Origin: Tomocerus qinae
Lineage: Eukaryota > Arthropoda > Collembola > Entomobryomorpha > Tomoceridae
Assembly: GCA_020055645.1 (NCBI GenBank)
Contig: CM034546.1
Span: 19,716,001 to 19,780,000, forward strand
Direction of reading: 5' to 3'
DNA length: 64,000 bases
The position numbers and the translations under genes are program-made. Within the stretch, counting starts at the first letter, position 1. Each line of letters begins with the position of its first letter. Of this stretch, positions 2,936-53,962 are shown one piece after another. Below the pieces are notes generated by a model. The model did no database searches. It saw nothing but the letters and a program-made list of their open reading frames with translations, and was not told the origin of the DNA.

Positions 2936-3796
2936 TTAGTTTGTGGTAGGGACATCCTTTCGCTTCTTCAATGGTATTCCCTTTCGTTTGGATAGAATTG
3001 TTTTCTTGGAATTAAGGTTGCGGTTGATTGGAAGTACACGTAAACGCATACTATTTATTTGCTTCTTCAATTTTTCAATCGTAGATAATGCTTCGGTATG
3101 ATTTTGGTTTTCTCTGCTCCAGTCCCACTCCACCTTTTCTTTTTCGTCTTGTTTTCGTTGTAGTTCTATTTTTAGTTCTTGAGTCTTGTTGAACCAGTAT
3201 TTCATGTCATCGTACAACATCTTTTCGCGGGCCGTCAGTGTAGTACTGTGATCATGTAATGGGTGGAGGGTAGCTGGATTAGTGCTCCGGAGGGTATCTA
3301 GTTGATTTTGGAGCTCACATTTCTTCTCTTTCAACTCAGTTGAAAAACGTTCTAGAAATTGTAATCGTTGAACTCGTAGGCTCGCGAATTGATTATTTTG
3401 GCAAATAGTAGCTTCTAATTGCACGACTTTACGCTGGAGTTCTATATTCTCCTCAGTTTTGGTATTATAGAGCTGTTGGTAATCATATGGTTGATCGAAA
3501 TAATTGTCGTTGAGATTATTTAGCTCTGGTATGGGTTCTGTCGCTAGTAAGGAGGTTAGATCCGATGTTAAATCAAAAATTGGGGGAGAATTTAAGCTAC
3601 GTCGTTCAATGTTGATTTCGGGTTCAATGATGGTTTCGGTTGGTGCTGTTTCAACCGGTCGGGGTGGAAATGGTCCAAAAGGCGATGGAGCAATATCTGG
3701 TGAGAGTGGAAACAATGTATCCGATGGATGCGGAAGATTGAGAAGATAGTCAAGTTCTTCCATAGTCCCGTTGAAGAAAGGTGATGGAGTATCCAT
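2936..3796 (-). CDS. Provirus accessory ORF 1: acidic N-terminus, coiled coil, basic C-terminus
   Basis: A 286-aa ORF from the ATG at 3796. Residues 10-20 are acidic and hydrophobic (MEELDYLLNL), followed by a Pro/Ser-rich stretch to about residue 60, then a linker. Residues 105-165 and 195-250 are coiled coil, separated by a short loop. The C-terminal 25 residues hold two basic clusters (SKRKGIPLKKRKDV) that resemble a nuclear localisation signal. An acidic-hydrophobic head with a basic tail is seen in transcription activators, so a Tas/Tax-like regulator is one possibility. This is inference from composition only. It is the first ORF after the envelope, 379 bp from its stop, and probably comes from a spliced mRNA. 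Confidence 0.72.
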   Translation of the reverse strand: MDTPSPFFNGTMEELDYLLNLPHPSDTLFPLSPDIAPSPFGPFPPRPVETAPTETIIEPEINIERRSLNSPPIFDLTSDLTSLLATEPIPELNNLNDNYFDQPYDYQQLYNTKTEENIELQRKVVQLEATICQNNQFASLRVQRLQFLERFSTELKEKKCELQNQLDTLRSTNPATLHPLHDHSTTLTAREKMLYDDMKYWFNKTQELKIELQRKQDEKEKVEWDWSRENQNHTEALSTIEKLKKQINSMRLRVLPINRNLNSKKTILSKRKGIPLKKRKDVPTTN

Positions 3797-4175
3797 ACTA
3801 TAGGTTGATAGTAGTGGGAATTCACTTACTTAATACACTCAACTACTTAGTAATAAAAATAACTGCTAATTTTAATTGCTTATATATATTTTCGGTGACC
3901 CTGCTATAGTTACATGTACTTATTGTGGTTAACTATTCTGGAGCGGAAAACTGTTACATTAAATCTTTGTGCTAGTTTAACCCGTTTTTAATGGGGCGGA
4001 AAATATTTCTTAAGTTAGTTTGTCTCTTGACTTGTTTTTTATAGAGCGGAAATCTATTGATATTTATTATTATGTGTAATGGGAATGTTTATTCCAGCAT
4101 ATTTACTACTTTTATTAAATACATTAGGTACCTATGTTCTAGCCTATTTTATAGTACGTAATTTTCTATAAATTG
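3797..4175. other. Spacer between envelope and accessory ORFs, with spaced GCGGAAA motifs
   Basis: No ORF. The heptamer GCGGAAA occurs at 3943-3949, 3996-4002 and 4046-4052, 53 and 50 bp apart, in imperfect 50-bp direct repeats with T-rich intervening sequence. On the transcribed strand it reads TTTCCGC. These could be protein-binding or splicing elements. Confidence 0.4.
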
Positions 4176-7100
4176 TTAAATCATTTTCTTTACCAGCCTT
4201 TGTGAGCATAGGTATATTATCCCAGCTAAACAGGCAATAATAATAATGAATATTATTATTTTTAAAATCCATGAGGAAAATATTGAGGATAAAAAGGAAC
4301 CAATAGCAAATGGCAGTTGGAGAACTGACTTAAGGTTGGCCCAATTTAATCCTAAATTATCCCAACTAAAACCAGAGGTTGTTGACTCTGTTTTATTCGT
4401 ATCTTGGAATAATGTGAACGATGTGTCAGTAATTTCATTTCTGACATCCACATCTTCTGAATAATGTAAATGACCTGTGATGGTCAATGGAATAACATGT
4501 TTTGCGCATTTGAACGTACAATTCATATGCACATTTGGTTGAGACAATTTCATTATAATTTGATGTTTTGTAAATTGATCCGTCAATGGTACGGGGCTAA
4601 AAAATCCAGCGTCTGGACATTCTAACGTACCGATTTCAGATCCGGTGTCAACCTTACCAACCAAAATTAATTCAGCTGATTCCAAACAATCGAAGCAACC
4701 CGATAAGGATATTATCTCTACAGAGCAAGAGACATCTTGGATTTCTTTTGTAATTTGGAGATCGTTTGTAGTCATTTGAATTTCTAGAGCTGAAGTCGAG
4801 GATGAGAGAAAACTGATATTACCTGAGTCAGCTATTAACATACCATTCTCCAATTTTAATGGTAGTCGATTTTCAGCTAAAACCTTTTCGGGGTCTACAA
4901 GGTCTGCTACACAACGGACCCCGTCTTGGGTAGGTATGGTTCGTACCAGACCAAGATTAGCAAAGCAGTTGTGGCTCACAGTTTTAGCATCTTGCTCCTG
5001 TGGGCATGCAATCTCGCCTATACTACCTATTTCAGTTTGTCCGCGATTTAAACAAGCAGACAAGCTGTATTGATTATTTCTGGACAATAGGCATTGATTT
5101 AGAACTGGGGTGTATGGTTCAGTGACTGATATGAGGGTGAATTCCATTTTTCCGATTTTTACTGGAATTCCTGCATGAATGGTGGTTAAATTAGTAGTTG
5201 TTTCATTTCCTAAATAGTGTGTAATGCTTAGTTTTACCGAATTCCTCCATTCATTGCATTTCCAAACTTTATATGCTTGGTTGGTGGGATTTACTAAAGC
5301 CACACGATAGAAATTGCAATCTGATGGAATTGGGAGGAAACACCAATTGTGACGGAAACTACGGCAATAATTCCAACCCAAGTTGGTTTCAGTGGGCCGA
5401 AATTCTTTGATTGTGTCATTAATGCCGAAATTTTCGCAATGGGTTCCATGACATAATGCAGAACCAAATATATTGTAACATTTAATCGCACTAGTGCAAT
5501 GTGGTACTGCCTTGGGAATATAATAGAGTAATTCCTTCATGCATGTTAATGCAACTGATTTAGTTTCAATTACGATCGATCCTAAAACATGATTTTTGGC
5601 ATCTTGGATACGAAAGCATGTTTTTTGGTCAAGTGCCGCCAGAGATAATCTGGTATTAATGCGTACGGTGCATGTTGTTGTAGTATCTGAGGCATAGTGA
5701 CATTCCTTGGATTGAGCGGAAATAGATGCAAAATCTGAGCACCCATAACATAAGAAAATGGATGCCCATAGGGAAAAAATAGTCAGAAGTCTTGTAGGCA
5801 AATAGTCTCGTCGGCGTACCCGTGTTGAGTTTCGACGTGAGCTACGAGTTTCGTTTCGAGCTTCGACTATAGGTGTGGATATATGTGGGGCTACCTCTAT
5901 GAGGGCGGTCCCAATATCTTCATCTGATTCTCTAGTAATTGGTTTCGGGCGGGTTTTCCTCGCCCTCATGAATTGTATAACAATTCGTAAAGGCCACGAG
6001 ATGCACCGTAACAGGGTGCAAATAATTTTCGATATATATATTACCGTAAAAATGATTGAGGAAAGAGTTAATGTGGCTATTGCTATAATCACGTATTGGA
6101 TGTAAGTGTAGCAGGAGAAATTGCGCCATCTGTCTGCGCAAAAATGACAATCTATTAATTCACAAAATGGGATTCGAGGGCATGTTATTGATCGAATTGT
6201 CGGGGAATCATAATCAAGTACCCAGATTTCTAACTGTAATTTTCCTGGGGAGCTTAACACACTTTTGGTTAGTTTTAAGGATGTCTCAAAAGAGGTCGGG
6301 ACTACAGACACAAAATTAGGGTTTTTCTGAGCTTTTATGTATTTAGCTACTATTCCGGGGGTTGAAATTCTAAGACCGGTTTTAGTACACTCAATGCTAC
6401 ACGTTGCGCATGGATATACTGTTTGAGATTGACTTAAATCTTCCTTTCGGGTAAACAGTCTCATTGTACCCCAACATTGGGGGTAAAAATTGCCCAAGGG
6501 GGATATCATGCGGTGAAGAATTGTTGAGGAATTGTAGCGACATTCGCAATTAGCTCGAATCTCGTTAGTGCAACCAAACTGTTCGCAGAATAATCTGTCA
6601 CCTTTGCATTGTTTGGAGGTACATTTCTCTTTTGTACATGAGCCCTTGCAAGTGTATGACTCAAAAGATTCTTTTCGGGCGTCTTGTTGTAGATTCAATT
6701 TTAAAAGCGGGTGTAATAGCCCGTCTTGAATGATTACGGGAACGTTTTCATACTGCTCGGTGAAATGTTGACAATGCTTTAGCACATGGTCACCGACGGC
6801 ACATAATGGTGATCTGACATCGTCTTGATAGAAGAACGCCGGATCTGGAGCTGTAAAATGTGACTGGCATTCCAGGTTATCTAATGTAGTCTCCTTAAAT
6901 TCCTTGCATTGTGCGTCGTTGGATACATTCAAGCATGATGTGCCCTCAGGTGCAATCATTTTTCCGGGATCGCATGTGACATTTCGAAAGCAAAGAGTTC
7001 CGTTTATTTTTGTATGTAGCCAAGAGATGGTGCTTGTACATTCTGGAATTTCATGATGTGGTGGCCACTCATATTCACATGGAGAGGCTAGTTTCGAGAG

Positions 7101-8072
7101 GTTTGGCTGAGTTTGATGGAATGTAGCCATTCCTGATCCAATCAGTAGTAATATTATAGTTGTAGTTATAATTGTTGTTGAGGAGTGGGTTGCAGTGAGA
7201 CGGCGTCTTGGTGATAGTAATTTCTTATATGCACTGCGGTACTGCGGATTTGAAATCGCATAGATCAGTACGTTTGTCCAAGAGGAAGACCATGCAAGTA
7301 ATGCACTTCCGATATGTACCAATTTAGATACTTTTTCTCTCTTCGGGTCGTATAAATTTAGGATGATGACAGGCTGAAAGTTGAATAAAAATCCAAGAAA
7401 TACGAAACAAATCATTCGAAATAGTTGTTTTTCCTCTTTGTTTCTTTCTTCATATCCAGTAATGGATCTTTGAGTGTGAGTGCCGACTTGTCTTCTTATT
7501 TTTCTTGTGTAGAAGAAAATTCGTGCGTAACAATATATAATAATTGCAGTAGGAAAGCAAATCCCTACTATCCAAATCATTTTCTTTGGGGATTGACCGT
7601 ATTTATCTGGAATTATAGAGCATGAAGCTGGGTTGTTTGGTTTGGGGCCTAATTTCCCCCAAATTCCTATTGCTGGAGGCGTGACCATTAAAAAACTTAA
7701 AACCCAGGTAACGATGATCATGAACCACATACGATATTTGGAAAATAAATTAGGATAGTCCCAGTGATGTACTATACACACATATCTGTTGAATGATATT
7801 GTGAGGATATTAGCCAATGTGCAACACAAGTTTCCGTATAGAAACCATGCATAAACTTGGCACATGAAGGGCCCTAACATCCATGCATCGTAGTAGTATC
7901 GTACTGCTGTCATTGGAAGTGTCACACTACTAAATAACAAGTCTGAGCAGCATAGACTCATTATTAGCCAATTGAATTTGTTCTTTTTTAGTTGTGGAGT
8001 TCGGCTGATTGCTATTAAGGTTATCGTCAGTGTTGTACTGGTGACCACTTTTTTGCATTTTGACCGGGCCAC
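4176..8072 (-). CDS. env: GPCR C-terminal part fused to two-part envelope glycoprotein (Gn/Gc-like)
   Basis: An open frame of 1298 codons without an ATG at its 5' end, because a MITE cuts it at 8028. Residues 15-290 are helices 2-7 of a class A GPCR (separate entry). Residues 297-316 are a hydrophobic signal-like segment. Residues 330-655 form a Cys-rich ectodomain, followed by membrane segments at about 657-702 and a polar, basic tail with an RVRRR cluster near 751. A second signal-like segment lies at 761-776. A second Cys-rich ectodomain runs from 778 to 1270 and ends in a membrane anchor at about 1272-1290. The second half, with a paired-Cys GCFDC motif near its end, resembles phenuivirus-type class II fusion proteins (Phlebovirus_G2), a family known in some BEL/Pao envelopes. 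The first half would be the Gn partner. N-glycosylation sequons are frequent. Confidence 0.8.
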   Translation of the reverse strand: MARSKCKKVVTSTTLTITLIAISRTPQLKKNKFNWLIMSLCCSDLLFSSVTLPMTAVRYYYDAWMLGPFMCQVYAWFLYGNLCCTLANILTISFNRYVCIVHHWDYPNLFSKYRMWFMIIVTWVLSFLMVTPPAIGIWGKLGPKPNNPASCSIIPDKYGQSPKKMIWIVGICFPTAIIIYCYARIFFYTRKIRRQVGTHTQRSITGYEERNKEEKQLFRMICFVFLGFLFNFQPVIILNLYDPKREKVSKLVHIGSALLAWSSSWTNVLIYAISNPQYRSAYKKLLSPRRRLTATHSSTTIITTTIILLLIGSGMATFHQTQPNLSKLASPCEYEWPPHHEIPECTSTISWLHTKINGTLCFRNVTCDPGKMIAPEGTSCLNVSNDAQCKEFKETTLDNLECQSHFTAPDPAFFYQDDVRSPLCAVGDHVLKHCQHFTEQYENVPVIIQDGLLHPLLKLNLQQDARKESFESYTCKGSCTKEKCTSKQCKGDRLFCEQFGCTNEIRANCECRYNSSTILHRMISPLGNFYPQCWGTMRLFTRKEDLSQSQTVYPCATCSIECTKTGLRISTPGIVAKYIKAQKNPNFVSVVPTSFETSLKLTKSVLSSPGKLQLEIWVLDYDSPTIRSITCPRIPFCELIDCHFCADRWRNFSCYTYIQYVIIAIATLTLSSIIFTVIYISKIICTLLRCISWPLRIVIQFMRARKTRPKPITRESDEDIGTALIEVAPHISTPIVEARNETRSSRRNSTRVRRRDYLPTRLLTIFSLWASIFLCYGCSDFASISAQSKECHYASDTTTTCTVRINTRLSLAALDQKTCFRIQDAKNHVLGSIVIETKSVALTCMKELLYYIPKAVPHCTSAIKCYNIFGSALCHGTHCENFGINDTIKEFRPTETNLGWNYCRSFRHNWCFLPIPSDCNFYRVALVNPTNQAYKVWKCNEWRNSVKLSITHYLGNETTTNLTTIHAGIPVKIGKMEFTLISVTEPYTPVLNQCLLSRNNQYSLSACLNRGQTEIGSIGEIACPQEQDAKTVSHNCFANLGLVRTIPTQDGVRCVADLVDPEKVLAENRLPLKLENGMLIADSGNISFLSSSTSALEIQMTTNDLQITKEIQDVSCSVEIISLSGCFDCLESAELILVGKVDTGSEIGTLECPDAGFFSPVPLTDQFTKHQIIMKLSQPNVHMNCTFKCAKHVIPLTITGHLHYSEDVDVRNEITDTSFTLFQDTNKTESTTSGFSWDNLGLNWANLKSVLQLPFAIGSFLSSIFSSWILKIIIFIIIIACLAGIIYLCSQRLVKKMI

Positions 8073-8648
8073 TGGTCAAAATGGTCAAAATGGTCAAAAT
8101 GGCTAAAATGGTCAAAATATCAGTGTACAGTTACTTAGGCTAGCAAATGAAATTTAAAATATTTAGAGAATGAAATATGGCCTAAAACCAATGAAACACT
8201 ATTCTACTAACATCAGACTACAGAATGACACTCTCCAATCATTTTTAACTGCAATCTTTAGAAAGTTGTATTTGTTGTTTACTGTTGCAGTAAAAGCTAC
8301 CTTGGGGTCTCAATTAACCCCAAACAGGCATTTTGTCCATTTTGACCATTTTGACCACTTTTTAGTTTTTTTTGACCGGGCCATTTTGACCATTATGACC
8401 ATTATGACCACTAGTGGTTTTAACCACTGCACAACACTGGTTATCGTATTGCCAATAAATCCGAGAATGGCGAATATAATCACACAATAGAATACCATGG
8501 TGGTAGTCCACCATGATCTGACTTTCTTATTCTGGTGAATTTCTGTGGCCGACGTTTGTTGAACGTTTGCTAAGACCATGACCACAGCGGTATAAATCCA
8601 CGGCCATGCTGATGATTTCTGGCATTGGTTTGGATATAGTTTTGGCAT
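7203..8648 (-). pseudogene. Captured class A (rhodopsin-family) GPCR, Tre1/Moody-like, split by a MITE
   Basis: Helix 1 with its Gly-Asn pair is encoded at the end of the pol frame (about 8496-8440). Helices 2-7 continue from 8019 in the next ORF. Visible class A marks: a helix-2 acidic site (CCSDLL), a Cys before helix 3, FNRY in place of DRY at the end of helix 3, a Trp in helix 4 (TWV), an extracellular-loop Cys, a Pro in helix 6, and SNPQYRSAY after helix 7. An NRY variant and this tail are features I associate with the Tre1/Moody group, which acts in germ-cell migration and glial barriers in flies. An upstream ATG at 8648 precedes a signal-peptide-like stretch. The 412-bp MITE plus one 8-bp duplication is 420 bp, a multiple of three, and the frames on both sides agree, so the receptor was continuous with pol and env before the insertion. 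As it stands it is broken unless the insert is spliced out. Confidence 0.85.
8028..8439. mobile_element. hAT-like MITE inside the captured GPCR
   Basis: A 412-bp element with termini CAGTGTTGT and ACAACACTG, flanked by an exact 8-bp duplication GTTATCGT (8020-8027 and 8440-8447). Both are typical of hAT transposons. Inside both ends lie clusters of the decamer TGGTCAAAAT in inverted orientation, like hAT subterminal transposase-binding repeats. No coding capacity. The first 130 bp of the element extend the pol frame to a stop at 8310, giving that ORF a foreign tail. Confidence 0.85.
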
Positions 8649-11600
8649 TTCGTGGTGTTCTTTTTTATGGGCTATATGTGTAACTTTTGAACCTTTTGTT
8701 GTTGGTTTGTCTTCCAATTCATGTGGTAGTATTAGACCATCGAAGTCATCTTCGTCTGAATCCGGTAGTTTTGCCAATTTGGATATTGGTCTTAGAAATT
8801 CCTTCACCGTTTTCTGAAATTTACCCCTTTTTTCATCATACGTACTTTGAGTTTCTACAGTCGTAACTCGAATAAGACCGTCCTTTGCGGGATGTACTGT
8901 TTTTATTCTGCCAGTACGCCACTGAAGTGGTGGTTGGTTGTCTTCCATTACCAAAACCAAATCTCCCGTTTTTAAATTTACTTGTTTTGACATCCATTTC
9001 TGCCTTTTCTGTAAGGATAATATGTATTCCTTTTCCCATCTTTTCCAGATTTCTTGATGTCGACGCATAATTCGTTGATATTTATCCAAACGATTTTCCT
9101 TTAAATGAGTGACGTCATGTTCTGGGTTCATTGTGAGAGTGTGGCCGATAAGAAAATGTCCTGGTGTCAATACATCTAAATCCTTTGGATCTTCAGATAT
9201 TGCTGTTAATGGACGAGAATTGACTACTGCTTCAACAAATGTGGTTATAGTCTCAAATTCTTCCCAGGTGTATTTGTAAATGTCATTATCGATCAATTTT
9301 TTCAGATGATTTTTGACCAGTTTTACCGCAGACTCCCAGGACCCGCCTTTATGGGGTGCTGCTGGTGGATTGAATTGCCATATAATTTTCTCAAATTCAA
9401 TATCTGGTAATATCTTGTTTCTTGTTTGTATGGCTGTTTTTATTTGTTCGTGAAAGTCGTCCATACGATTATTCGCTCCAACGAAGTTGGTACCGTTATC
9501 TGAATACATATGAGAGGGCCGTCCTCTTCGAGAAATGAAACGTCGAAATGCCAACAGAAACCCGTCAATTGACATTGAAGATACGATTTCCAAATGTATG
9601 GCCCTCGAGCTCATACAGATAAAGAGAGTCAGCCACACCTTGAAGGGGCCTCCACGGCCTGTAAGGTTCCGAAGTAAGAATGGTCCGGCCAAATCCACAC
9701 CACAGTGTAAAAATGGGCGAATATCACTGAATCTGGCAGGTGGAAGCTGTCCCATTAGTTGGGTTTCTGGTCTGGCTTTGTATCGGAAACACGTTAAACA
9801 TTTGTTAATGACACTCTTGATAGTTTTTGTTGCATTCGGGATCCAGTAGCGTTGACGAATATGTCCGTTTATGTTTTGTTTTCCTGCATGAGCTAGAATG
9901 ACATGAGTGTGAAGAATCATCACTCTTACCAATGGATGGTTGCCTGGTAGTAATATCGGGTGTTTTGTCGCAAACGGGAGGGGGGCATTCTCTAATCTTC
10001 CCCCAATTCGAAAAATGCCTTCGTCATCTTTAAATAGGTCCAAATTTTTGAATGGGTGATGTTTCTGATTATGAACCTTGATACCTAGGTCTGGGTATAT
10101 GCTTGCTTGAATTAGTCCAGCTAATTTCCTTTCCGCTGAATCCAATTCCAAAGGTCCGATAATCACTGATTTTCCTATATATGTACAATGTGTAAAGCGG
10201 AGAATGTAGGCCATTACTCGAATGGCCTTCTTCCATGATGAGAATTTGGATAGACCTTGTAGTACAATATTTTCATCTCGATGCGAAATGGTACATATTA
10301 GATTTTTCTTTTCTTCAGCTTTGTCGAATTCGTTGCTACAAGTTGTTGGATTGAATGTAGGTACTGGATATTTTGGTTCTGAAAGCCATTTGGGTCCATG
10401 CCACCATAACGGGTGGTTTCGCAGCTCTTCAGGATCCAGTCCTCTGGATGCGCAGTCACTTGGATTATCTTCTGATGATATATGGTGCCATTGATCCTTA
10501 GTCGTCAGTTCATGGATTTGGGTGATGCGGTTAGCAACGTAAATTTTCCATCGTGTAGGTTCGGAATGGATCCAATTAAGTACGATCGTACTGTCACACC
10601 ATAAATGAATTGCGGTATATTGTATGTTCCATAGTTTTTTGATATGATCAGCCAAATTTGCTAGTAGAACAGCTCTTTGTAATTCTAATCGTGGAATCGT
10701 CACTGTTTTAATAGGAGCAACTCTGGTCTTGGCGGCAACAAGATTTATGTCCACCTTATCGCCCTTTCGTCCTCGTAAATAGATAACAGCTCCATATGCC
10801 AATTGGCTGGCATCGCAGAATCCGTGGAGTTCCCAGGTGAAAGATTTGTCATACTGTAAACATCTGGGAATACGAATTTTTTCTAATTGTTGTAGATTTT
10901 TGGCGTAATGTAGCCAATTTGTTAGGATTGGTTCTGGGATAGCTTGGTCCCATTCGACATTCTGAGTCCAAATGGTTTGCATCAAAACCTTCGCCTTGGT
11001 TATGACAGGAGCTAACAGGCCTAGAGGGTCGAAAACCTTAGAAATATCAGAGAGTATCGTTCTTTTGGTGTGGGCCTTGGATGGATCAAAATTAACCGTA
11101 AACATAAATCGATCGGTCGAGGGCAGCCATTTTAAACCTAATGTTTTTACGGTGGCTGTGTTATCAATTTTCATTGGGTTTTCAGAAGATTCTCTTAAGT
11201 GGAGTGGTAATGTCTTGAGAAGTTGTTTCGAATTACTGCTCCATTTGCGTAGCTCGAAGTTTGCAGTGGCCATCATTTGTATCAATTCGTCCTTGGCTTG
11301 ATTGGCGGTGGCCAAATCACAGTAAGAACTCATGTAGTCATCAACATAAAAGTGTGCTTTTACTGCTTGTGCAGCTAACGGAAACTTGGAGCCTTCATCT
11401 TCAGCGAGCTGACGTAATGTTCTGCAGGCTAAAAATGGTGCAGGTGAAAATCCAAAGGGTATTGTGTTCATTTTGAAGTGTTGTAATTGTTCGCTTGGAT
11501 GTTTTCGCCAAATTATCCTGGCAAAATCTTGTTCTTCCGGATGTACTCTTATTTGTCGGTACATTTTTGCAATGTCAGCCACGACAGCAATTGGTCTCAA

Positions 11601-13388
11601 CCGGAAGTAAAGAAGTTGATCAAATAAATCCGGTTGTATAGTAGGTCCAGGGGCTAGTATGTCGTTCAAGGAAACTCCAGATGACGTTTTTGCGGATGCA
11701 TCGAATACAATACGAACCTTGGTCGTAGTAGAATCTGGTTTGAAGACTGCATGGTGCGGAATATAGTAATGATGAGGTCTTCCAAATGGATTCTCGTCTG
11801 CCAAATGAACTGGTTCCATTTGACCTGCCTTTAGGTAGTCTTCAAGTTGGTCATTGTATTCTTGTTGTAAATTTGGAAATTTCTTCAATCTGGATTCTGT
11901 GCTCAGCCATCTTCGTATGGCTGCTGCCTCGGAATTTCCTAATTTTTCGGTACTGTCAATAAATGGCCATCTTATCTGGTATGAGCCATTAGGTAGCCGA
12001 ACCGTATTTTTGACATAATGTTCTTCGCAAAACTTTTCTGTTTCAGTCATGGGAAGTTTTGTGGGTAATTGCTCAATTTGCCAAAACGTTTCCATGTTGA
12101 ATGGAGCCATCGGTATGGGAACTATATCCTTCCTTTTTATTGCGGTGCAACAAAGTTTAGTGGTTTCATCTTTTGTTTCCCCTAGAACTACGTATCCAAG
12201 CGTAGTTCGGTAAGCACTAGGTTTCCCGCTCAATCCAGTGATTTTCTTAGCTTCCATGACTTTATCATAGATTGCTGACCCAAGCAAGACTTCTATTGGT
12301 CGAGTTTCGTTAAAAGTAGGGTCAGCTAGTGGTAAGCCTTCTAAATGAAATAATTCTTTCTTGTCGAATGATTGATTGGGCAAGGGTGAAGTGATATCTG
12401 GCAAAATATAAGCGATAACTCGGTATGAATTGGTTGGATGGACTATAGATTGAATCCAGAACATCGTTTTTCCGAGTGAGGGAATCGTTTTCCCTCCGGC
12501 GACTGTAAATCTTTTGGTTTCACCAAATCCTTCTAGTTGAAGTTGTTTTGCCATTTTTTCTGTTATAAAGGAATTCTGTGCTCCACAATCGAGGAGACAG
12601 CGGACTCGGAAAGTTTTGCCGTTATTTTGGAGATTAACAATTGCTGTGGGTAGCAATCCAATTTCTTCTTCTTGTTCACCAAGAAAGATCCTTGAGTGAT
12701 TAAGGACTGGCATCTGTTGCCCTTTTCTATGTGGGCTACTTGATCTGGGTGACTCGGGTTCTAGATGTGTCGACGTATGATGCCGTTTTCTACAAGTCAT
12801 ACATGAAAACTTGCTAGTGCAATTGCTAACCCGATGATTTCCTACACAGTTAAAGCATTTTCGATTGGTCTTGATCCAATTGATTCTTTCCTTCACAGAC
12901 ATGGCTTGATACTTAGGACAGGCTGTGACCCTGTGGTCTTTCTTATGACATAAGGAACAGCTGTTATCGTGATTGTCCTTGCGAGGAAACTGGCTTTGAT
13001 TGTCATTTTTAAATCTGGAAGGTCCAAATTTACTATGCCCTGGCGAGGGACTTCTGTTCTGACCCTTCTTTTGGAATCTTGGCGGAGGTTTTCCAGCGAA
13101 GTTGACGGATTTCTTTCTTTCACTCTTCCGCCTTGATTGTCTCTTTTTCTTAGTGCCGCTGGCGACACTACATATGCTAGTAGCGCTGGTGCCTGAGGTT
13201 TCGCTATCAGAGTAATTATCGGTAGTTTCTCCGTCAGTGTCCTGAGTCGCTACCATAATCCGTGGTCCTTTTCTGGACTTATGATGGAAACGTAATTCCT
13301 TAGGTTTGTCCCCTGATTGTTTGCAGGTATTACGTATCTGGGTGTTAAGGCCTATGGCCTTCGCTTTTTGGACAAGAATTCCAAGCAT
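8310..13388 (-). CDS. pol: BEL/Pao pol polyprotein (zinc knuckles, protease, RT, RNase H, integrase), running into GPCR helix 1
   Basis: A 1692-codon frame overlapping gag by 37 bp in the -1 frame. Domains in order: basic linker; three Cys/His knuckles (residues 144-208); aspartic protease with LLDCGA (265-270); reverse transcriptase with YVDD (681-684); RNase H with FCDA (858-860) and further acidic residues near 902, 932 and 978; integrase with a His/Cys zinc site (about 1160-1200) and the catalytic triad D1232, D1297, E1352. Residues 1581-1650 (from an ATG at 8648) are a signal-like segment plus helix 1 of the GPCR. The last 43 or so residues come from the MITE. All catalytic residues I can check are present, so the replication part looks functional. 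How pol is separated from the downstream receptor and envelope is not evident. Confidence 0.9.
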   Translation of the reverse strand: MLGILVQKAKAIGLNTQIRNTCKQSGDKPKELRFHHKSRKGPRIMVATQDTDGETTDNYSDSETSGTSATSICSVASGTKKKRQSRRKSERKKSVNFAGKPPPRFQKKGQNRSPSPGHSKFGPSRFKNDNQSQFPRKDNHDNSCSLCHKKDHRVTACPKYQAMSVKERINWIKTNRKCFNCVGNHRVSNCTSKFSCMTCRKRHHTSTHLEPESPRSSSPHRKGQQMPVLNHSRIFLGEQEEEIGLLPTAIVNLQNNGKTFRVRCLLDCGAQNSFITEKMAKQLQLEGFGETKRFTVAGGKTIPSLGKTMFWIQSIVHPTNSYRVIAYILPDITSPLPNQSFDKKELFHLEGLPLADPTFNETRPIEVLLGSAIYDKVMEAKKITGLSGKPSAYRTTLGYVVLGETKDETTKLCCTAIKRKDIVPIPMAPFNMETFWQIEQLPTKLPMTETEKFCEEHYVKNTVRLPNGSYQIRWPFIDSTEKLGNSEAAAIRRWLSTESRLKKFPNLQQEYNDQLEDYLKAGQMEPVHLADENPFGRPHHYYIPHHAVFKPDSTTTKVRIVFDASAKTSSGVSLNDILAPGPTIQPDLFDQLLYFRLRPIAVVADIAKMYRQIRVHPEEQDFARIIWRKHPSEQLQHFKMNTIPFGFSPAPFLACRTLRQLAEDEGSKFPLAAQAVKAHFYVDDYMSSYCDLATANQAKDELIQMMATANFELRKWSSNSKQLLKTLPLHLRESSENPMKIDNTATVKTLGLKWLPSTDRFMFTVNFDPSKAHTKRTILSDISKVFDPLGLLAPVITKAKVLMQTIWTQNVEWDQAIPEPILTNWLHYAKNLQQLEKIRIPRCLQYDKSFTWELHGFCDASQLAYGAVIYLRGRKGDKVDINLVAAKTRVAPIKTVTIPRLELQRAVLLANLADHIKKLWNIQYTAIHLWCDSTIVLNWIHSEPTRWKIYVANRITQIHELTTKDQWHHISSEDNPSDCASRGLDPEELRNHPLWWHGPKWLSEPKYPVPTFNPTTCSNEFDKAEEKKNLICTISHRDENIVLQGLSKFSSWKKAIRVMAYILRFTHCTYIGKSVIIGPLELDSAERKLAGLIQASIYPDLGIKVHNQKHHPFKNLDLFKDDEGIFRIGGRLENAPLPFATKHPILLPGNHPLVRVMILHTHVILAHAGKQNINGHIRQRYWIPNATKTIKSVINKCLTCFRYKARPETQLMGQLPPARFSDIRPFLHCGVDLAGPFLLRNLTGRGGPFKVWLTLFICMSSRAIHLEIVSSMSIDGFLLAFRRFISRRGRPSHMYSDNGTNFVGANNRMDDFHEQIKTAIQTRNKILPDIEFEKIIWQFNPPAAPHKGGSWESAVKLVKNHLKKLIDNDIYKYTWEEFETITTFVEAVVNSRPLTAISEDPKDLDVLTPGHFLIGHTLTMNPEHDVTHLKENRLDKYQRIMRRHQEIWKRWEKEYILSLQKRQKWMSKQVNLKTGDLVLVMEDNQPPLQWRTGRIKTVHPAKDGLIRVTTVETQSTYDEKRGKFQKTVKEFLRPISKLAKLPDSDEDDFDGLILPHELEDKPTTKGSKVTHIAHKKEHHEMPKLYPNQCQKSSAWPWIYTAVVMVLANVQQTSATEIHQNKKVRSWWTTTMVFYCVIIFAILGFIGNTITSVVQWLKPLVVIMVIMVKMARSKKTKKWSKWSKWTKCLFGVN

Positions 13389-15001
13389 TGCTCAAATGTG
13401 GGGATATCGTCATTTTTAATGGAATCATTGAATGCTTTTGCGGTTTTACTGTCCAATCTTCCCAATATAAAATGTATGTAGAATACATGATATAATGGTA
13501 CTGAAGTGTTAATCTCCTTAAGATGGGCCTCTGATGCTCGTGCAATGTCAACGAGTCTATTAATGCCATCTTCAGTTTGAATCATTAGTGTAGGTAGATC
13601 TAAAATGGGTTTCAGGGCTGCATGAGCCATTTCTCTTGGTGTGTCATAACGTGAGGTTAGCCTCATCCATGCAGTCTCCCAATTTAGGTCATTAACTTTC
13701 AAATCGCTGTTAATGTGTTTTCTACTACCGTCTTTTAATGCGTCATTAAGTAGCCTAAGTTTTTGGGCTGGGGAATATGCTGGTTCTTTGATAACTACTG
13801 TTTCAAAGTTATCCTTGAATGCTGACCAATGCTCTGGTTTGCCTGAAAACCTTGGCAAGCTAAATTTCGGAATTTTCAGTTTGTTCACTGAACTCGAGTT
13901 GGCAACAGTTTTACTAGGACAGATAACCTTTTCTAAAGCCATTAATTTTCGCAATATTCTATGATAATTTGATTCTAATGGATTGTAATATGCCACTGCT
14001 CTTTCTTGGGGAGTAGTTTCTTCTCCTTCGTGAAGTTCGTTGTCATATATTTTAAAACAATTTTTCTGTTGTTTGCCCAGATCTGTTTTCAATTGTTTTA
14101 GTTCCTCTAGATAAATTTCTATGTCTATTTCGATCAATTGTCTTCGGTTTTCTTCATGATCTTCAATAGCCTGGTCTATTTTGTCTAAAGCGGCAGCTAT
14201 GGCCGCGTGATTATCTAGATGATCTTCCATGTTAGCGAATATTATCCGTCTACGAGCTCTTTGGCCTTCATCGTCGTCTCGGGACTGGGGGGTACTTTCC
14301 CTAGATCTATCATTGTGACGTCTTCTGTTATTTCCATTGTGGTCTTCATCGTCACCTCCTCCGTCCTGATCCCCTGGGGGTAGATTTTGTTGTCCGTTTG
14401 GAGGAAGCTGGCCGTCCATTCTTGGTGGAGGAGTGTAAGGTCCTTGACGATTGCCTACGGGGTTTCGGTTTGGAGACCGGTTTGGAGTTCGGTCACCGGT
14501 TTGTCTACCTTCTGGGTTTTCTTGGGTGTTGCCAAAAAGTGGTCGGATAACACGTGAGAAGAGTGATTGGCGCGAATCCTTTGGCAGGGTCGGTGTATCT
14601 TGACCTTGCAATGCGGGCACCGCTCTGCGCGGTGATAACGAATGAGATTGGCTAGTTGATACTTCGGGGGCGGTACCACGAACGTCTTGGGATCTAGCGT
14701 GGGAGGTAGTACCTCGTCGACTTGAGATACTGGCGAGCTGGTCGCTGAGTTCCCTTTTTGGATCAGGGATGGATTGTTGGATGCGCCTAAGCTTTGCGAG
14801 AAATTCGGCGTCAGAAATAAGTTCTTCGTCGGGGTTTGTTTTAGTACTGGCTGTACTACTTGCAATTTGTTGATTTCTATTTCTTGCTTCTGTATATGGG
14901 CTTTTTGTAAGGTCAAAGTGTGCAGGGAGTTGGGCCTGCCCTTGCTGTCTAGTGTATGCTCTACTAGATGTGGGGGATTGTCCATCCTGAGGGTCACTCA
15001 T
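13352..15001 (-). CDS. gag: BEL/Pao gag
   Basis: 549 aa from the ATG at 15001. Residues 1-250 are low-complexity, rich in Q, R, S, P and G, with arginine clusters. Residues 255-330 are helical and acidic. Residues 365-549 match the DUF1759 type of BEL/Pao gag, with the signature FSGKPEHWSAF and the helical region that follows. The zinc knuckles normally near the end of gag are in the pol frame, because gag stops at 13352 just after an A5 run (13365-13369). Many BEL/Pao elements have gag and pol in one frame. Here there is either a programmed -1 shift at this run or a one-base deletion (real or from sequencing). Gag assembles the particle and packages RNA. Confidence 0.88.
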   Translation of the reverse strand: MSDPQDGQSPTSSRAYTRQQGQAQLPAHFDLTKSPYTEARNRNQQIASSTASTKTNPDEELISDAEFLAKLRRIQQSIPDPKRELSDQLASISSRRGTTSHARSQDVRGTAPEVSTSQSHSLSPRRAVPALQGQDTPTLPKDSRQSLFSRVIRPLFGNTQENPEGRQTGDRTPNRSPNRNPVGNRQGPYTPPPRMDGQLPPNGQQNLPPGDQDGGGDDEDHNGNNRRRHNDRSRESTPQSRDDDEGQRARRRIIFANMEDHLDNHAAIAAALDKIDQAIEDHEENRRQLIEIDIEIYLEELKQLKTDLGKQQKNCFKIYDNELHEGEETTPQERAVAYYNPLESNYHRILRKLMALEKVICPSKTVANSSSVNKLKIPKFSLPRFSGKPEHWSAFKDNFETVVIKEPAYSPAQKLRLLNDALKDGSRKHINSDLKVNDLNWETAWMRLTSRYDTPREMAHAALKPILDLPTLMIQTEDGINRLVDIARASEAHLKEINTSVPLYHVFYIHFILGRLDSKTAKAFNDSIKNDDIPTFEQCLEFLSKKRRP

Positions 15002-15746
15002 TTGCTAGGTACCATAGCTGGTGCTATGATTACCATGACAGCGTATATGAATGTGTGTACTATGATTGTCTGAAAGACAAGCCCTGGCCACCGAAAAATG
15101 AAGGGACAGTGGGCTGATAGAAGAAAAATCTGACCTTTTTGTTGGCACTGGATCGGAAAATAATTCAGAGTCCAAGTGCGAAGAAATCCACGATGAGAGA
15201 GATGGTGAGTAGAGGTGAGACCGTCGCTGGGTAGAGATAAAAGTCCGATGAATTAATACATGGACTGCACAAAACGTTAGAAAATCGACGGAATGGAAAT
15301 CGAGCACGGATCGAGTCAGGCTACACAATAATAATAGTAGGACACACAATCGAGTAGAAGAACGAGCGAGTGGCAGATAAACAACTGCACGGACCGCAAC
15401 GTTGAGGTTGGTAAAACCGAACAGAAGCCTGACACGAAGGAATAGAGTTGGCTATGCGAGCCACACACCACTATGAAACACAGTCCGTAATAGGTCGTGT
15501 ATCGTGTGAGCACTGCTAGGCTCAGCTGTGAAAATGCGAGACGAAATGACTATTTTAGCAGAATAGTCATTCACAAACACGAGAGAAATACTTATATGGA
15601 AGCCGGCTGAAAATAAGTATAAAACACTTGTCTCGCTCACGGTATCCGGAGAACGTAGAGAAGTTCATGCACGGATATGTCACGGAGAGTCCTGTAAGGG
15701 CCTGAGGAAATGGTGGGCCTTAAGGTTCACGAAATCGGAGTCCAAA
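15002..15746. other. Provirus 5' untranslated leader
   Basis: About 745 bp between the PBS and the gag start. Small ORFs are present on the minus strand, but none looks coding. No strong GTAAGT-type donor for the spliced env or accessory mRNAs is obvious by eye. A packaging signal would be expected here. Confidence 0.55.
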
Positions 15747-15766: not shown

Positions 15767-16307
15767 TAGATTGGATTGCAGATTCTTGCAATAAACTATG
15801 AATGAAAAATGTCCCGAAGAATCCGACCAATATGAAGATGCTGCACAAGTGAATGGTAATAAGTAAGTTATGCTGCAGTGGACTTTAATGAGTTTTTAGT
15901 AGAGTTAACTAGACAACTAGACTGATTTATTCATAAAATAATTGTTACTTATATACTAATATTTGACATACAATTATACTTAAAACTAGAGTATGTAACC
16001 TAATTGACAATAATTGATCGGGGACAGTAATCCCGATCTTACTTATTAACTGGAACTGTGTTCCACATGAAAATTAGTAAATTAGAAATTTAACCTAGAA
16101 TCATTAAGTAATTGAGGTCAATAACTTACATAATAAGGGATAATCTGGAACAACCAGATATACGTTTAACTATCGATAAATATTCAAGTATTATTAGTAA
16201 AGTACGTTATTATCTATTATGTATATGTTGTATATGTAAATGCGGATGTGCGGTTGGGAGTCAGCGGAGAGAAACAGGATGAGAGGATAAGGAAAGGAAT
16301 TAAAACA
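15767..16307 (-). repeat. 5' LTR of the provirus
   Basis: Copy of 456-996 with the same length and no difference seen by eye. As the upstream LTR it would drive transcription leftward. The matching AATAAA is at 15926-15931. The first base beyond it (16308) starts the AAACT target duplication and the continuing minisatellite unit. Confidence 0.93.
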
Positions 16308-17904
16308 AAACTGAAAGTGGATAGAGGCTTTTTCCATCCTTAAGGGACGATATGTTGATTCAATAATGGTTTACTACTTCCCGTCCGTAGGACGGGCTTG
16401 TTTCTAGTAGGATGATAATAACCTTTATCGATGTATTTGACCATTCCCGAGGTAAATATATACAATTTAGCTGATGCATGGTAAACTCGACCCTGACAAG
16501 TTAGTTATCAATAGATAAAAATAATTCATATATATGTTGAGCTCTGTGTTTGTAACTGGTATAGCTATAATAATAATATTAAACACAGGTGAGATGTGAG
16601 ACATAGCTTCGAACATTCTATATAACATATATATTGTAATTCAGTTTTATTTTTCGTTCTAATGATTGATTATTGATATTTATGACCTTTACAAGATAAT
16701 GGATGTCAAAAACCACGTTAAGGTAGACATTCACACCTTTGTCATCAGATTTAATTCTTATGATTACATTGAAGACAGTCCCATATACATAGAGGATTGT
16801 ACGAAGGGTGTGGAAGGTTCAAATTTATTCTATGTTGATTTAATTACAATAATTCGCAGCGTAGTAATATAAATAATTATTAAACGCCACAAATTAATGT
16901 ATAAGTACTATATTTTTTTACAAACCTGCAATAATGTATTCATTGTATTACATGGCCTCATTCTCATATTATTTGTCACTGTAACTGTCTTTAACTCACT
17001 ACGACGACATAATTTGCATGATTTAATGTAAAGGTAACCCCCGTAGGCCTTCTCTGTAACTTAGGTAAAACTAGTTTTTATTTAATTACTATCTATTAGT
17101 TGACTAGTTTTTATTTCAAGTTAAGGTTCAAGCTAAATTTGGTTACCTCAGATATTATTAGGAGCTAATAAACAAATGAGAAAATATAAATGTACTGCAT
17201 ATATTATAAATATGACATGCATGCAGTGACTACGCGGCGCGGGTGACCATTCGTAATTCGTAGACACACTTCTCAAACTCCTCAAGGACCGTAAATCCCA
17301 AAAATGCTATCTCGGGAACTATAAGTGTTAGAAGGAAAACTCCTCGGATATAGACGAATCAGGGGAATCCAAGATTTTAATTTTTTGGGAAAAAAACTTT
17401 TTTGTTTGGCCCTCTACGACAAAAAGACCTCGGATATATAGCCGAATTGGGCAATTTAGAGATTTTGATTTTTTGAGGTTCCATATGGAACCCTGGGTGG
17501 CTGAGGAGTTTACCGAATTCTACTTTTCCATTATCGGAATCACATTTGTAATTTGTAATAATATACTAGATCTACATTGTAACTCTGGAGTTCACCTTTG
17601 TCAATGCCAATTGTCGAAAAAGTTTTAAACGAGTTCAACAAGCAATTGACTTTAACATGGCATATCATATAAGAGATTTATAGATATTCTTCAAATAAGT
17701 TTACTAAATGTTTTTACTGCAGAAACTTTCTCTCCAGCAGCAGTGTTTAAAAACGAGGTGGTCATTTACATAAATAGAGGGAGCTCAACAGCGAAAACTA
17801 ACATGAACACTTAATCAAATCTTACCAAATTAAATTTATCTTTCTAACACGACTTTGTAACTCCAATATTGTTAGTACGAGAGACCTTGAATTGTGAAAA
17901 ACAA
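16308..17904. other. Intergenic, minisatellite remnant and an imperfect 85-bp repeat
   Basis: 16308-16344 completes the minisatellite unit broken by the provirus. A perfect short palindrome (CCCGTCC-GTA-GGACGGG) lies near 16380. At about 17335-17385 and 17420-17475 two similar segments (CCTCGGATATA...GATTTT.ATTTTTTG.G) form an imperfect direct repeat. No convincing gene is seen. Confidence 0.5.
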
Positions 17905-18445
17905 AATAGATAAATAGAATAATTTTGAAGAATAAATAAATACAATAATTTCGAAGAATAGATAAATAAAATAATTTCGAAGAATAGATAAATAAAAAAT
18001 ACTTTCGATGAGTAGATAAATAAGAATAATTTCGAGGAGTAGATAAATTAGAATAATTTCGAAGAATAGATAAATAAAATAATTTCGAAGAATAGATAAG
18101 TAAGAATAATTTCGATGAGTAGATAAATAAGAATAATTTCGAAGAATAGATAAATAAAATAATTTCGAAGAATAGATAAATAAAATAATTTCGAAGAATA
18201 GATAAGTAAGAATAATTTCGATGAGTAGATAAATAAGAATAATTTCGAAGAATAGATAAATAAAATAATTTCGAAGAATAGATAAGTAAGAATAATTTCG
18301 ATGAGTAGATAAATAAGAATAATTTCGAGGAGTAGATAAATTAGAATAATTTCGATGAGTAAATAAATTAGAATAATTTCGATGAGTAGATAAATTAGAA
18401 TAATTTCGAATAGTAGATGAATAAGAATAATTTTTAAGGGTAGAT
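17905..18445. repeat. 27-bp minisatellite
   Basis: About 20 tandem units of AATAATTTCGAAGAATAGAT plus AAATAAG, with variants (GATGAGTAG, GAGGAGTAG) that recur in order, so blocks of units were duplicated together. The unit is a multiple of three, so long ORFs appear on the opposite strand; they are composed of the repeat and are not genes. Confidence 0.85.
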
Positions 18446-19254
18446 AAATATAACATTTTCCCATTCTTCGAATTTCAAGATAGTGTTGATAAAGTTGGGT
18501 AGCTCTATGTAATGGAAAAAACATGAATTACAGATAATCATACATGCTGCTACATACCTTTTATTTTTACTATGCCATGCCGTCCTACCTTTATTTCTGC
18601 TAAGATTATGATTTTAATCTAAAGCTGTTATCAATCTGATATTATAAATGGGACGAGCAACATCGTTGAACCACGAACTCCTAATCCACTTCCAGGAAAT
18701 ATTTTTGTAGGCTACATTTAAAGAGTTATATGCTAGTGTGTATGGTGTTCATTAGATATACTACTACTATGGATAATCCATAGAAATAATGTGTTTAATT
18801 AAATGAATAAACGTGAGGAAGCTAAGGAAAATTCCACGGGACTTCTCTGTGTTATTTAAGCTGGGGTAATACCTCCTCCGAGCGAATAAAAATAGGATAA
18901 AATACCATATACCTCATTCGATTACATCGACTGTACACAATATTTAAACTATATAATATTACATTATATTACTTATTAGAATAAATTGAAATGTGTACAC
19001 AGATTTTGTGATAAATTGTATGTTAAGCTACCCAGTGATAGGCATTTACTTCTATTCTTGCCTGGGTTATTAAATATCATGGAAAATAGATAGCTACATA
19101 CTAAATATTATAATAAAACAATAATTCTTCGATTGATTCTATATCATTTTAATGTTTGGCTCTACCAAATCTATTAATCATAAAAAAATAGAACTATTTA
19201 TAGTATGTCAATGTCAATACGCTAAATCTGTTTTATTTCTTCAGTCTAGTTAAA
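18446..19254. other. Intergenic region upstream of a chemoreceptor gene
   Basis: AT-rich, no ORF of note and no repeat recognised. Confidence 0.5.
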
Positions 19255-27270: not shown

Positions 27271-30341
<3,071 letters not shown>

Positions 30342-44295: not shown

Positions 44296-44364
44296 TAAAA
44301 CAAACAAGAAATTGCGTCGCATATTGTAACATCTAACAGGAAAATAATCATAGTGAAAAAAGAA

Positions 44365-45895
44365 ATGGCTTTAAGCGAGGGTGTTAACCTTTCCTCTAAT
44401 GATGAAGGGGACAAAGTCATCTACTCAATTTCAGCTGAGATATTCGACCAATTTGACCGTTTATTAAAATTGGGAAATTATCTGAAAATATTCCCATTTT
44501 ATTGGTGCAGAAAAGACTACGCCGTAAAGAAAAGGAACAGCAAAATTACGACTTGCATTTCTTATCTTAATCCAGCAATAAATTTTCTAGCGTCACTGTA
44601 CTTCACAATTCAGTTTGTTAGATTTTCAAAACAAGGTGACTTTTCGTTTTCGTACATTATCTCATTACTTGCAAGTGGAGCATGTTGGGGACTATTTCTG
44701 GTAGACTGCCACCGTATAACATTGTCCCAGCACATTGCTACTGGCATTACAGACGTCTTGAACATTCTTTGGGATTTTGAAGGTACAAGGCAAATCATTT
44801 TTATTTGATTTCATGAAATCCATTCACTGCAAATACAATATAATAATAATATTTTTTAGAAAAATTCATACCTGGCAATAAAGAAATTCAGGATGAAAAT
44901 GTTACCAAGGCAATGAAATTTATGAACACGGTCCCCTACATTTACCCATTGTTTGTGGTAACATTTTATTTATTCTTCTGTCGGGAACCAGTATTTCTAT
45001 TCGTGGATCTTCCAACAAAATATCAACATTTTCCGTTTATCATTATCTTTGCAATGGTACTGATGTGGATTTCCATTACCAATGCGTGGACAATTATAAT
45101 TGTCCTGGAGACAATAATGGTTGGATATCGCATTGCTTATATTTTCGAACAATAGTTGAAGTGAGTAAATCTACTTTCTCGTTATGAATATCAATTATTC
45201 AGTAATTATTTACTCAGTTATTATTTATTCATAATCTTATAAGAATGTATATAAAAAATTACTGGGGTTTGTAAAACACACAATTCTAAATGTGTATTAT
45301 AATTTATAATTATAACTGTAAAAATAATATAAAATTGTTTCTTAATGGCAATTTAATGTGGATTACTAGGTTGGGACTAAAACATTACAGATTGAAGGAT
45401 GTTGTTCGTCGAGATCCTAAAATTACTATGAAATATGGCTACATTTTAAAATACTACTTACAATTTGCGCAGTATGAAATTGGTCTTGTGCTAGGGCCCA
45501 TTCAATCATTGGTCACCAGATCACTAATAATTGTTTTCGTCTTTATAATTAAATATTATAAGGCGTGTCCATTATTTGTCTTGATTTTAGTTTGTTTTGC
45601 TGCTTTTTATATTTTTACTATATGGTGTTTGTTTTTAGTTCTTGTACACAAAGTAACAGAGATGTTCAACACTACCGTCAAAAGCTATTCTAAACTGTAC
45701 ACTTCTAAAAATATAATTGATGTAAAGTATATGAAAAAATCATTACGTTTTTTAAAAGACGTGCATTTTAGAATAGGATTGGATGACCCTGTCACAGTTA
45801 AAAGTGTACCACAGTTTATACTGAGTCTTAGCAGAGGGGTGACTAAATTATTAATGTCAACTGGTGATATGGGTGAAGTCTTTGATTTTATCTGA
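44365..45895 (+). pseudogene. Chemoreceptor (gustatory-receptor-like) copy 1, in-frame stop
   Basis: Exons 44365-44782, 44860-45160 and 45370-45895 (418, 301 and 526 nt; phases 1 and 2). The reading frame gives a 414-aa 7TM protein like its paralogues: two helices in exon 1, two in exon 2, three in exon 3, and the shared C-terminal region with SVPQFILSLSRGVTKLL. Near the end of exon 2 a TAG replaces the GAG seen in copies 2-4 (at 45153), truncating the protein before the last three helices. The rest of the gene is intact, so the loss is recent. Starting codon chosen by alignment to copies 2-4; an upstream GTG-extended frame is not used. Confidence 0.75.
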
Positions 45896-48850: not shown

Positions 48851-49049
48851 AGCTAGGAAAGGATAAACCAATAAACCCAGTTTATATTAAACAACATTAT
48901 TTTGGTGGAGCTTCATTTGCCGCAATGCGGAACTTTTTCATTACTTGGTCAGTATAAATATTATATATGTTTATAAAGTTTGTAACTAATCTAAAATCAA
49001 GTAATTTTATTTACATAGCTAACCTAGCTTAATAAAACTTTAGGTAGAG

Positions 49050-49057
49050 TATAAATA
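49050..49057 (+). promoter_or_regulatory. TATA-like box of chemoreceptor copy 2
   Basis: TATAAATA, 76 bp before the ATG, same block as in copy 1. Confidence 0.5.
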
Positions 49058-49125
49058 TAAAACAAACAAGAAATTGTGTCGCATATTATAACATCTAACA
49101 GAGAAAGAACCATAGTAAAAAAGAA

Positions 49126-53500: not shown

Positions 53501-53760
53501 GCGATATCGCATGCACTTGTTCGCTAAAAAAATGATTTGATCCTTCCATTTGCATTTCTCAAAATTTTACCATAGCAGTTCAAAGGGCCTTATTTATGAA
53601 ATAGCGGTTTTAGTTTAGTAGCTATCTAGCTTCACCACTACTTTTGTCTTACATACTTTAGGAGGCGGGAATTTAGTAGCATTTTTTCAAAATGGTTAGC
53701 TATCTAACCTCAGTAAATTAAAAATGAAAAATATCGCAACCACACAGCCGACGTGATGCT
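50595..53760. other. Between copies 2 and 3: duplicated flank, no gene
   Basis: Begins right after the stop with a repeat starting CACGTATCTAGAGGAGGGCA (50618), followed by sequence shared with copy 3's flank. A gene-less promoter-like block is at 52080-52190. No gene seen. Confidence 0.5.
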
Positions 53761-53954: not shown

Positions 53955-53962
53955 TATAAGTA
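53955..53962 (+). promoter_or_regulatory. TATA-like box of chemoreceptor copy 3
   Basis: TATAAGTA, 77 bp before the ATG; one base differs from the other copies. Confidence 0.45.

Follow-up and report, generated by a model that had tools for sequence, protein, structure and literature searches.

How does a seven-helix receptor come to lie between the polymerase and the envelope genes of a retrovirus-like element, and why is it still there? The question is raised by a 64-kb stretch of the 334-Mb assembly of the collembolan Tomocerus qinae (C1:19716001-19780000, hereafter the window), the minus strand of which carries a 15,852-bp provirus of the BEL/Pao type, with a class A G-protein-coupled receptor (GPCR) set between its integrase (IN) and a phlebovirus-like Gn-Gc envelope. 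To our knowledge, GPCR piracy is known only in large DNA viruses; it now appears to extend to retrovirus-like elements, in which the receptor heads the envelope precursor and has been kept through deep divergence. A preliminary description, made from the letters of the window, had proposed such a capture, and all results given below come from this one host genome.

The receptor and its interruption in the window

The receptor region (8648-7203, minus strand) matches the Pfam profile 7tm_1 at E 3.5e-36 over residues 20-272 (profile positions 6-260), which bears out the proposed position of a 7TM GPCR between pol and env and, by hidden Markov model, assigns it to class A. When the PDB was searched by sequence, GPR84 came out as the best solved relative (6e-21), with 566 distinct sequences at E<=0.001, and the match is therefore not one of chance. 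Along the minus strand, the 3' end of the pol open reading frame (ORF; 8310-13391) continues into a signal-peptide-like stretch, recognised by eye, which shares the pol frame and runs for 34 aa from Met 8648 to ...QQTSA (8547-8648), with counterparts in copies of the three receptor-bearing lineages described below (A, B and C). Next, at 8440-8546, come the receptor N-terminus and the start of helix 1 (GFIGNTIT). A second ORF (8075-4176) holds the remaining receptor, from the rest of helix 1 to helix 7 and the helix-8 region (7203-8019; motifs FNRY, NVLIY and SNPQYRSAY), and then, in frame, Gn and Gc. Between receptor and Gn lies a hydrophobic segment, ...TIITTTIILLLIGSGMA... (7119-7202), read as the Gn signal sequence and visible as a hydropathy peak in the scanned copies of A, B and C and of a receptor-less lineage, D. 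Every part of the path originally traced, from the integrase frame through the signal-like stretch, helix 1, helices 2-7 and their FNRY and SNPQYRSAY motifs to the envelope signal, is present.

The two frames of that earlier reading arise because a 412-bp insert (8439-8028) splits helix 1. Given its inverted ends, CAGTGTTGT/ACAACACTG, and the 8-bp repeat ACGATAAC that flanks it at 8447-8440 and 8027-8020, it is presumably a hAT-type miniature inverted-repeat transposable element (MITE). In five other A copies checked, the insert ends are missing and the target word is present, and the helix-1 stretch adjoins helices 2-7 directly in 22 of the 26 other receptor loci. An intron or a frameshift site between the two receptor ORFs was rejected on the inverted ends, the 8-bp duplication and the absence of the insert from the other copies checked. 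The receptor of the window copy is broken by its own insertion, and uninterrupted receptors exist elsewhere, with 7tm_1 matches of 1.5e-37 (L022), 1.4e-40 (L023) and 1.4e-40 (L029), each over profile positions 1-260. No second copy of the MITE was found in a search confined to the 64-kb window.

All parts of the provirus lie on the same strand, in the order gag, pol, receptor, Gn-like protein, Gc-like protein, three accessory ORFs and long terminal repeat (LTR). The profiles Phlebovirus_G1 (8.9e-20, Gn-like glycoprotein, 5991-7040), Phlebovirus_G2 (3.2e-63, Gc-like fusion protein, 4773-5741) and Phlebo_G2_C (8.4e-6, Gc C-terminal domain, 4224-4733) occur in order and identify a phenuivirus-like Gn-Gc envelope. 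Its second best PDB match is 7a4a (2e-32), which we take to be the Gc of Atlas virus, a nematode belpaovirus. In pol, profile matches mark an aspartyl protease, reverse transcriptase, Peptidase_A17 (2.1e-54), H2C2 integrase and DUF5641, with RVT_1 at 28.3 bits falling just under its 29.6-bit cut-off, and the gag ORF (13352-15004, stop to stop) matches DUF1759 at 6.3e-20. The pol drew 5274 protein matches, the best 120 of which are 37-50% identical and, where a species is named, all arthropod. The 5' LTR (15767-16307) and 3' LTR (456-996) measure 541 bp each and are identical, and AGTTT stands both upstream of the 5' LTR (16308-16312) and downstream of the 3' LTR (451-455) as a 5-bp target-site duplication; the window provirus is, for these reasons, a full-length and recent insertion. 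A Pao-type pol, a DUF1759 gag, LTRs and a short target-site duplication are features of BEL/Pao elements, and the length of 15,852 bp exceeds the 4.2-10 kb that the accessible text of PMC3118150 gives as usual for them, a customary range and no strict criterion.

Copies, constraint and ancestry of the receptor

A whole-genome search with the receptor gave 57 matches. From these, 26 further loci with an identity of about 40% or above (L009-L034) were fetched, together with 14 that were weaker or shorter (L035-L048). All 26 of the further receptor loci have Gn downstream on the same strand, and 25 have IN/DUF5641 sequence, sometimes its tail only, upstream (the exception being L034). Together with the window, these 27 loci form three lineages: A and A-like, with 14 members (window, L009-L020, L027); B, with seven (L021-L026, L031) and a receptor identity of 73-81%; and C, with six (L028-L030, L032-L034) at about 44%. 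Two placements, L031 in B and L027 in A-like, follow residues, where overall identity pointed to C and B.

Whole receptor frames occur at 14 of the 27 loci (L009-L016, L022-L024, L028-L030); that of L025 is open but runs out of frame around helix 6, and the remainder, including the window, are broken. At 12 of the 27 (L009-L016, L022-L025), one open frame extends from the pol tail through the receptor at least into the start of Gn, and L029 joins receptor, Gn and the start of Gc in the same manner. Open frames around whole receptors reach 3472, 3424, 2933 and 2808 aa; the longest, from a B copy, starts in gag and spans gag, pol, receptor and envelope (the same frame by coordinates), which upholds the proposal that the receptor is in frame with both neighbours.

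Codon models (GY+F3X4) were run on uninterrupted frames only, which for the receptor meant five A copies, six rows for A+B and seven rows for A+B+C out of the 27 loci. The ratio omega of nonsynonymous to synonymous change (dN/dS) came to 0.103 (A), 0.027 (A+B) and 0.039 (A+B+C) for the receptor, to 0.110 (four rows), 0.029 (four) and 0.030 (five) for Gn, and to 0.051 (A+B, five rows) and 0.037 (all, six) for IN, the deep values being rough as synonymous sites are near-saturated between families. Pairwise estimates within A by the NG86 (Nei-Gojobori) method range from 0.018 to 0.269. Fourfold counts and the codon model were used in place of Biopython dS, which was saturated between A and B: for the pair A_L010 and B2_L022, 54 of 77 fourfold sites have changed, with 79% of residues identical in the receptor and 67% in Gn. 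A simple neutral simulation at this divergence left 7% identity, and none of its 200 runs remained free of stops. In third-codon bases the receptor closely resembles gag, pol and env and, to a lesser degree, tubulin, the sole host gene compared, as would be expected of a gene with a long residence in the element. Judged from these substitution patterns, the receptor is kept by purifying selection and has been long maintained; the dN/dS comparison proposed at the outset thus returned constraint across copies (0.027-0.10), and not decay.

As to ancestry, the element receptors form one clade (98/98.9) and lack introns. The nearest host gene among the receptor-search matches, called Tre1-like here (L035, C4:13264865 onward), is 35-39% identical to them and consists of several exons, one junction having a clear GT and AG; it carries the motifs NRY and NPFIY. 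Identity to the element receptors is 28-33% for a Moody-like host gene (L038) and 22-28% for GPR84. Two trees grouped the element receptors with the Tre1-like gene, the Moody-like gene and GPR84 (bootstrap/Shimodaira-Hasegawa-like approximate likelihood ratio test, SH-aLRT, 83/94 or 95/96.2), in line with the proposed Tre1/Moody-type capture; placement beside the Tre1-like gene itself received 42/57.5. Grouping that host gene with C or with A/B was rejected (approximately unbiased test, p-AU 0.0061 and 0.0063). Tre1-like and Moody-like are names assigned from similarity to GPR84 and from family motifs, the comparison covering host genes and GPR84. The trees and gene structures support capture of a Tre1/Moody/GPR84-type receptor as an intronless sequence that was apparently installed as the leading module of the envelope precursor. 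A receptor that a replicating element has taken up and that selection has maintained is, by that definition, a viral GPCR (vGPCR).

Searches of wider collections, with tools of limited reach, added little. Among 5.8 billion proteins, the receptor query returned four weak matches at 22-25% identity, which look cnidarian, and the whole 1299-aa ORF returned none, the reach in both cases being limited to relatives that share short exact words. Scans of IMG/VR with receptor, pol, Gc and a receptor alignment found nothing, at a reach from which absence elsewhere does not follow, and phage and plasmid records gave no match among those in the collection.

An envelope of the same kind also occurs without a receptor. 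Genome searches gave 68 matches for Gn and 60 for Gc, and 18 Gn loci outside the receptor matches were fetched (L049-L066), falling into D (L049-L051, L056-L059), D' (L052, L060), E (L053-L055, L061, L062) and four fragments (L063-L066), two of which, L063 and L064, resemble A copies with an internal deletion. No receptor match better than E 2.7 was obtained in these 18 loci, and Pfam finds 7tm_1 in L022, L023 and L029 and not in L050 or L055. The envelopes of L050 and L055 drew no Pfam call at 0.001 and were detected by tblastn. In lineage D (L050, with an open frame of 3108 aa) the receptor site is occupied by a signal-like stretch, a single hydrophobic helix and the Gn signal, and in E (L055) by a short leader only. 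The expectation that other copies would carry the receptor was therefore borne out by 26 further loci, with unbroken receptors in 14 of the 27, but not by the related lineages D and E. The single helix of D (seen in L049-L051 and L056-L058) could be the relic of a deleted receptor or a state that preceded capture.

Several observations on the copies stand apart. L018 (C1:10308559) and L019 (C3:9172110) share an identical disabling change in the receptor, and the broken copy was therefore mobilised or segmentally duplicated; C3:9172110 lies ~15 kb from a whole copy at C3:9187338. LTR regions from three further A copies (L087-L092, six pieces) were picked by expected distance, and four of the six match the window LTR over 56-66 bp at 82-84%, with no match in the other two. 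Within pairs, L091/L092 share 583 bp and L087/L088 share 280 bp, each at 100%, and L089/L090 share nothing within their short pieces. Despite this mismatch, the receptors of these three copies are 98-99% identical to that of the window, and the discrepancy can be read as LTR exchange or recombination among family A copies. A further deletion remnant was noted at L037.

What the receptor may do

Nine element rows were compared with the host Tre1-like gene at 15 class A marker positions, and at 14 of them every covering element row has the host residue. Those kept include N1.50, D2.50, C3.25, R3.50, Y3.51, W4.50, C45.50, P5.50, Y5.58, P6.50 (with a small gap there in the broken copy L033), N7.49 and Y7.53; NRY and F6.48 are likewise as in the host gene. 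At 7.50, the proline of the host gene is V in eight of the eight covering element rows, giving the motif NV[L/M/P]IY. Of the loops, extracellular loop 2 (ECL2) has diverged least between A/B and C (0.61-0.65). In a hydropathy scan, B4 and C1 showed the Gn segment and all seven helices; the first signal-like stretch was missed in the scanned copies.

We consider it probable that the receptor was captured, is made with the envelope precursor, is displayed in a membrane and signals in the infected cell. An envelope-bearing BEL/Pao lineage would have taken up an intron-free copy of a receptor of the Tre1/Moody/GPR84 family and placed it between the post-pol signal-like stretch and the Gn signal sequence. 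Once expressed, from a polyprotein or perhaps from a spliced mRNA, the receptor would be the first module of a precursor composed of signal, seven helices, second signal, Gn and Gc; such threading, and release of the receptor by signal peptidase at internal sites, are predicted because a signal-like stretch precedes the receptor and a hydrophobic segment follows it. The freed seven-helix protein would then reside in a membrane, that of the infected cell and perhaps also that of the virion, and would signal through G proteins by means of its retained N-R-Y switch and a helix-7 switch altered by the change of P7.50 to V. The benefit to the element would lie in moving or re-programming the infected cell.

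It had also been suggested that the element might steer infected cells, reach the germ line or alter host signalling, and the constraint and retained motifs are compatible with all three. Entry into germ cells benefits an element, and fly Tre1 guides primordial germ cells, a 2025 review placing it, in the part available, downstream of both Hedgehog and Smoothened, at the migration front (PMC12752509); the arginine of its NRY is described as essential for this migration in the accessible portion of PMC3848830. Passage of blood cells out of vessels is another possible target (PMC6122984, available text). It is tempting, though doubtful on present indications, to suggest that the element steers an infected germ-cell precursor, blood cell or barrier cell by a host guidance cue and so enters the germ line more often. 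If true, this would be a retrovirus-like lineage navigating by a stolen germ-cell homing receptor. Two questions become testable with these elements, namely how endogenous retroviruses enter the germ line and, because ECL2 was kept, what Tre1-type receptors recognise.

A number of points weigh against a signalling receptor under selection. The MITE disrupts the window copy, and 13 of the 27 loci lack a whole receptor, a state to be expected in old proviruses but also under drift; the deep omega values suffer from the saturation noted above, and within A only five copies entered the estimate, in which some substitutions post-date insertion. In codon usage, tubulin is closer to the receptor (0.179) than is the accessory ORF 2967-2035 (0.206). 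The NPxxY proline is lost in all covering element receptors, which may have changed activation or internalisation. Intracellular loop 3 (ICL3), frequently the determinant of G-protein choice, shows low conservation between A/B and C (0.16-0.20), and so do ECL1 (0.17-0.25) and ECL3 (0.11 over nine residues). The hydropathy scan found six helices in A2 and B2, and an AlphaFold model of helices 2-7 from a shallow alignment was discarded at a pLDDT (predicted local distance difference test) of 46. Finally, lineages D and E live without a receptor and with the same kind of envelope.

Some of these points would suit a structural role, in which the seven-helix protein acts as chaperone, scaffold or topogenic leader for Gn-Gc, or as a component of particle attachment, and does not signal. 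The receptor does head the envelope precursor, the signal-like stretch and single hydrophobic helix of D occupy the same place, such that a membrane leader may itself be useful, and both the lost proline and the divergent ICL3 point the same way. A leader would have no need, however, of the retained NRY, D2.50, disulfide cysteines, P5.50, P6.50 and ECL2, and L055 of lineage E manages with a short one; a purely structural role is accordingly judged unlikely. Less plausible still is a decoy or blocker that soaks up a host ligand or interferes with a host receptor or with superinfection. The contrast between a well-kept ECL2 and a poorly kept ICL3 is what such a protein might show, but NRY and the cores of helices 6 and 7 are kept as well, and ECL1 and ECL3 fare as poorly as ICL3.

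The signalling reading with a single capture must also be set against two independent captures of similar host receptors, one in the ancestry of A/B and one in that of C. Trees of IN and Gn were built from one uninterrupted stretch per locus, with a warning from the tool of long branches meeting in both, and the groups for their topology tests were chosen after earlier trees had been seen. In the IN tree, the receptor-less D falls inside the carriers, with C (92/89), and all carriers as one clade are disfavoured (p-AU 0.027), as two captures would have it. The Gn tree instead joins D with A/B (80/65) and is compatible with the carriers as one clade (p-AU 0.349). The receptors themselves form a single clade in which V for P7.50 is shared, and trees that place the host Tre1-like gene between them are rejected (p-AU 0.006). 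The IN tree is also explained by loss in D or by recombination, and two captures seem very improbable. Because the receptors form a single clade, one gain after E split off, with loss in D, appears the simplest account, and recombination between pol and env would also account for the trees. That the receptor is a mere passenger, a functionless fragment in one or a few copies or a host gene hit by an element insertion, might be supposed from the broken window copy, and this or any single-copy artefact can, short of an assembly error common to all loci, be set aside with near certainty given the 26 further loci (27 in three lineages), the strong constraint and a position inside LTRs and target-site duplication.

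Known systems and the remainder of the window

Captured receptors are familiar from other settings. Herpesvirus vGPCRs are largely relatives of chemokine receptors, and acute transforming retroviruses with v-erbB, v-fms or v-mpl carry a captured host receptor, sometimes fused to env. The latter captures are recent, usually replication-defective and non-GPCR, whereas the gene described here is lineage-wide and under purifying selection. The herpesvirus receptors US28, ORF74 and BILF1 are likewise host GPCRs captured and kept by a virus, as outlined in the accessible text of PMC9584139; they are stand-alone genes of large DNA viruses, whereas the present receptor is of the Tre1/GPR84 type and in frame with the env of a reverse-transcribing element. 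Drosophila Tre1 and Moody, with GPR84, provide the best sequence and tree match, Tre1 having NRY at helix 3 (PMC8540695, PMC3848830, available portions); their family has NPxxY at helix 7 (PMC8540695, same portion), whereas the element receptors have V for the proline and lack introns.

Among retroelements, Atlas virus and the nematode belpaoviruses combine BEL/Pao with a phlebovirus-like Gn-Gc, and Atlas virus, with a complete copy and identical LTRs, has a single Gag-Pol-Env frame comparable to the 3472-aa frame here (PMC9094657, open portion). It measures 9.2 kb, and the main text of that report never uses the word GPCR, whereas the present provirus has 15.85 kb, a receptor and three accessory ORFs. 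Anakin, a mosquito BEL-Pao element with a chuvirus glycoprotein (PMC7642597), and rotifer LTR elements with a captured ORF3 (PMC5408684) similarly acquired a foreign gene after pol and spread it by retrotransposition; in the accessible parts of these reports the captured genes are viral glycoproteins, an esterase and an exonuclease, with no GPCR. No GPCR in a BEL/Pao element or other retroelement is named in the titles and abstract openings of the papers listed by searches of the open literature, a scope outside which subscription papers mostly fall.

Downstream of the envelope, the provirus has two accessory ORFs of coiled-coil-like appearance, at 2936-3829 (a weak match under cut-off) and 2035-2967 (weak SMC matches under the NCBIfam cut-off), and a third of 214 aa at 1161-1805 without a Pfam match. 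A coiled-coil-like ORF also lies 3' of the Gc remnant in L037. Elsewhere in the window, four pairs of similar tandem ORFs on the plus strand (44299-60982) look multi-helix and chemoreceptor-like by eye, with no Pfam match in the three pieces scanned, and an 870-aa ORF on the minus strand (37853-40465), also without a Pfam match, has the layout of an ionotropic receptor by eye. A tubulin gene, identified by Pfam and of the beta type by eye, occupies 27271-28671 on the minus strand, and a tandem array of ~27-bp units occurs at 17862-18529.

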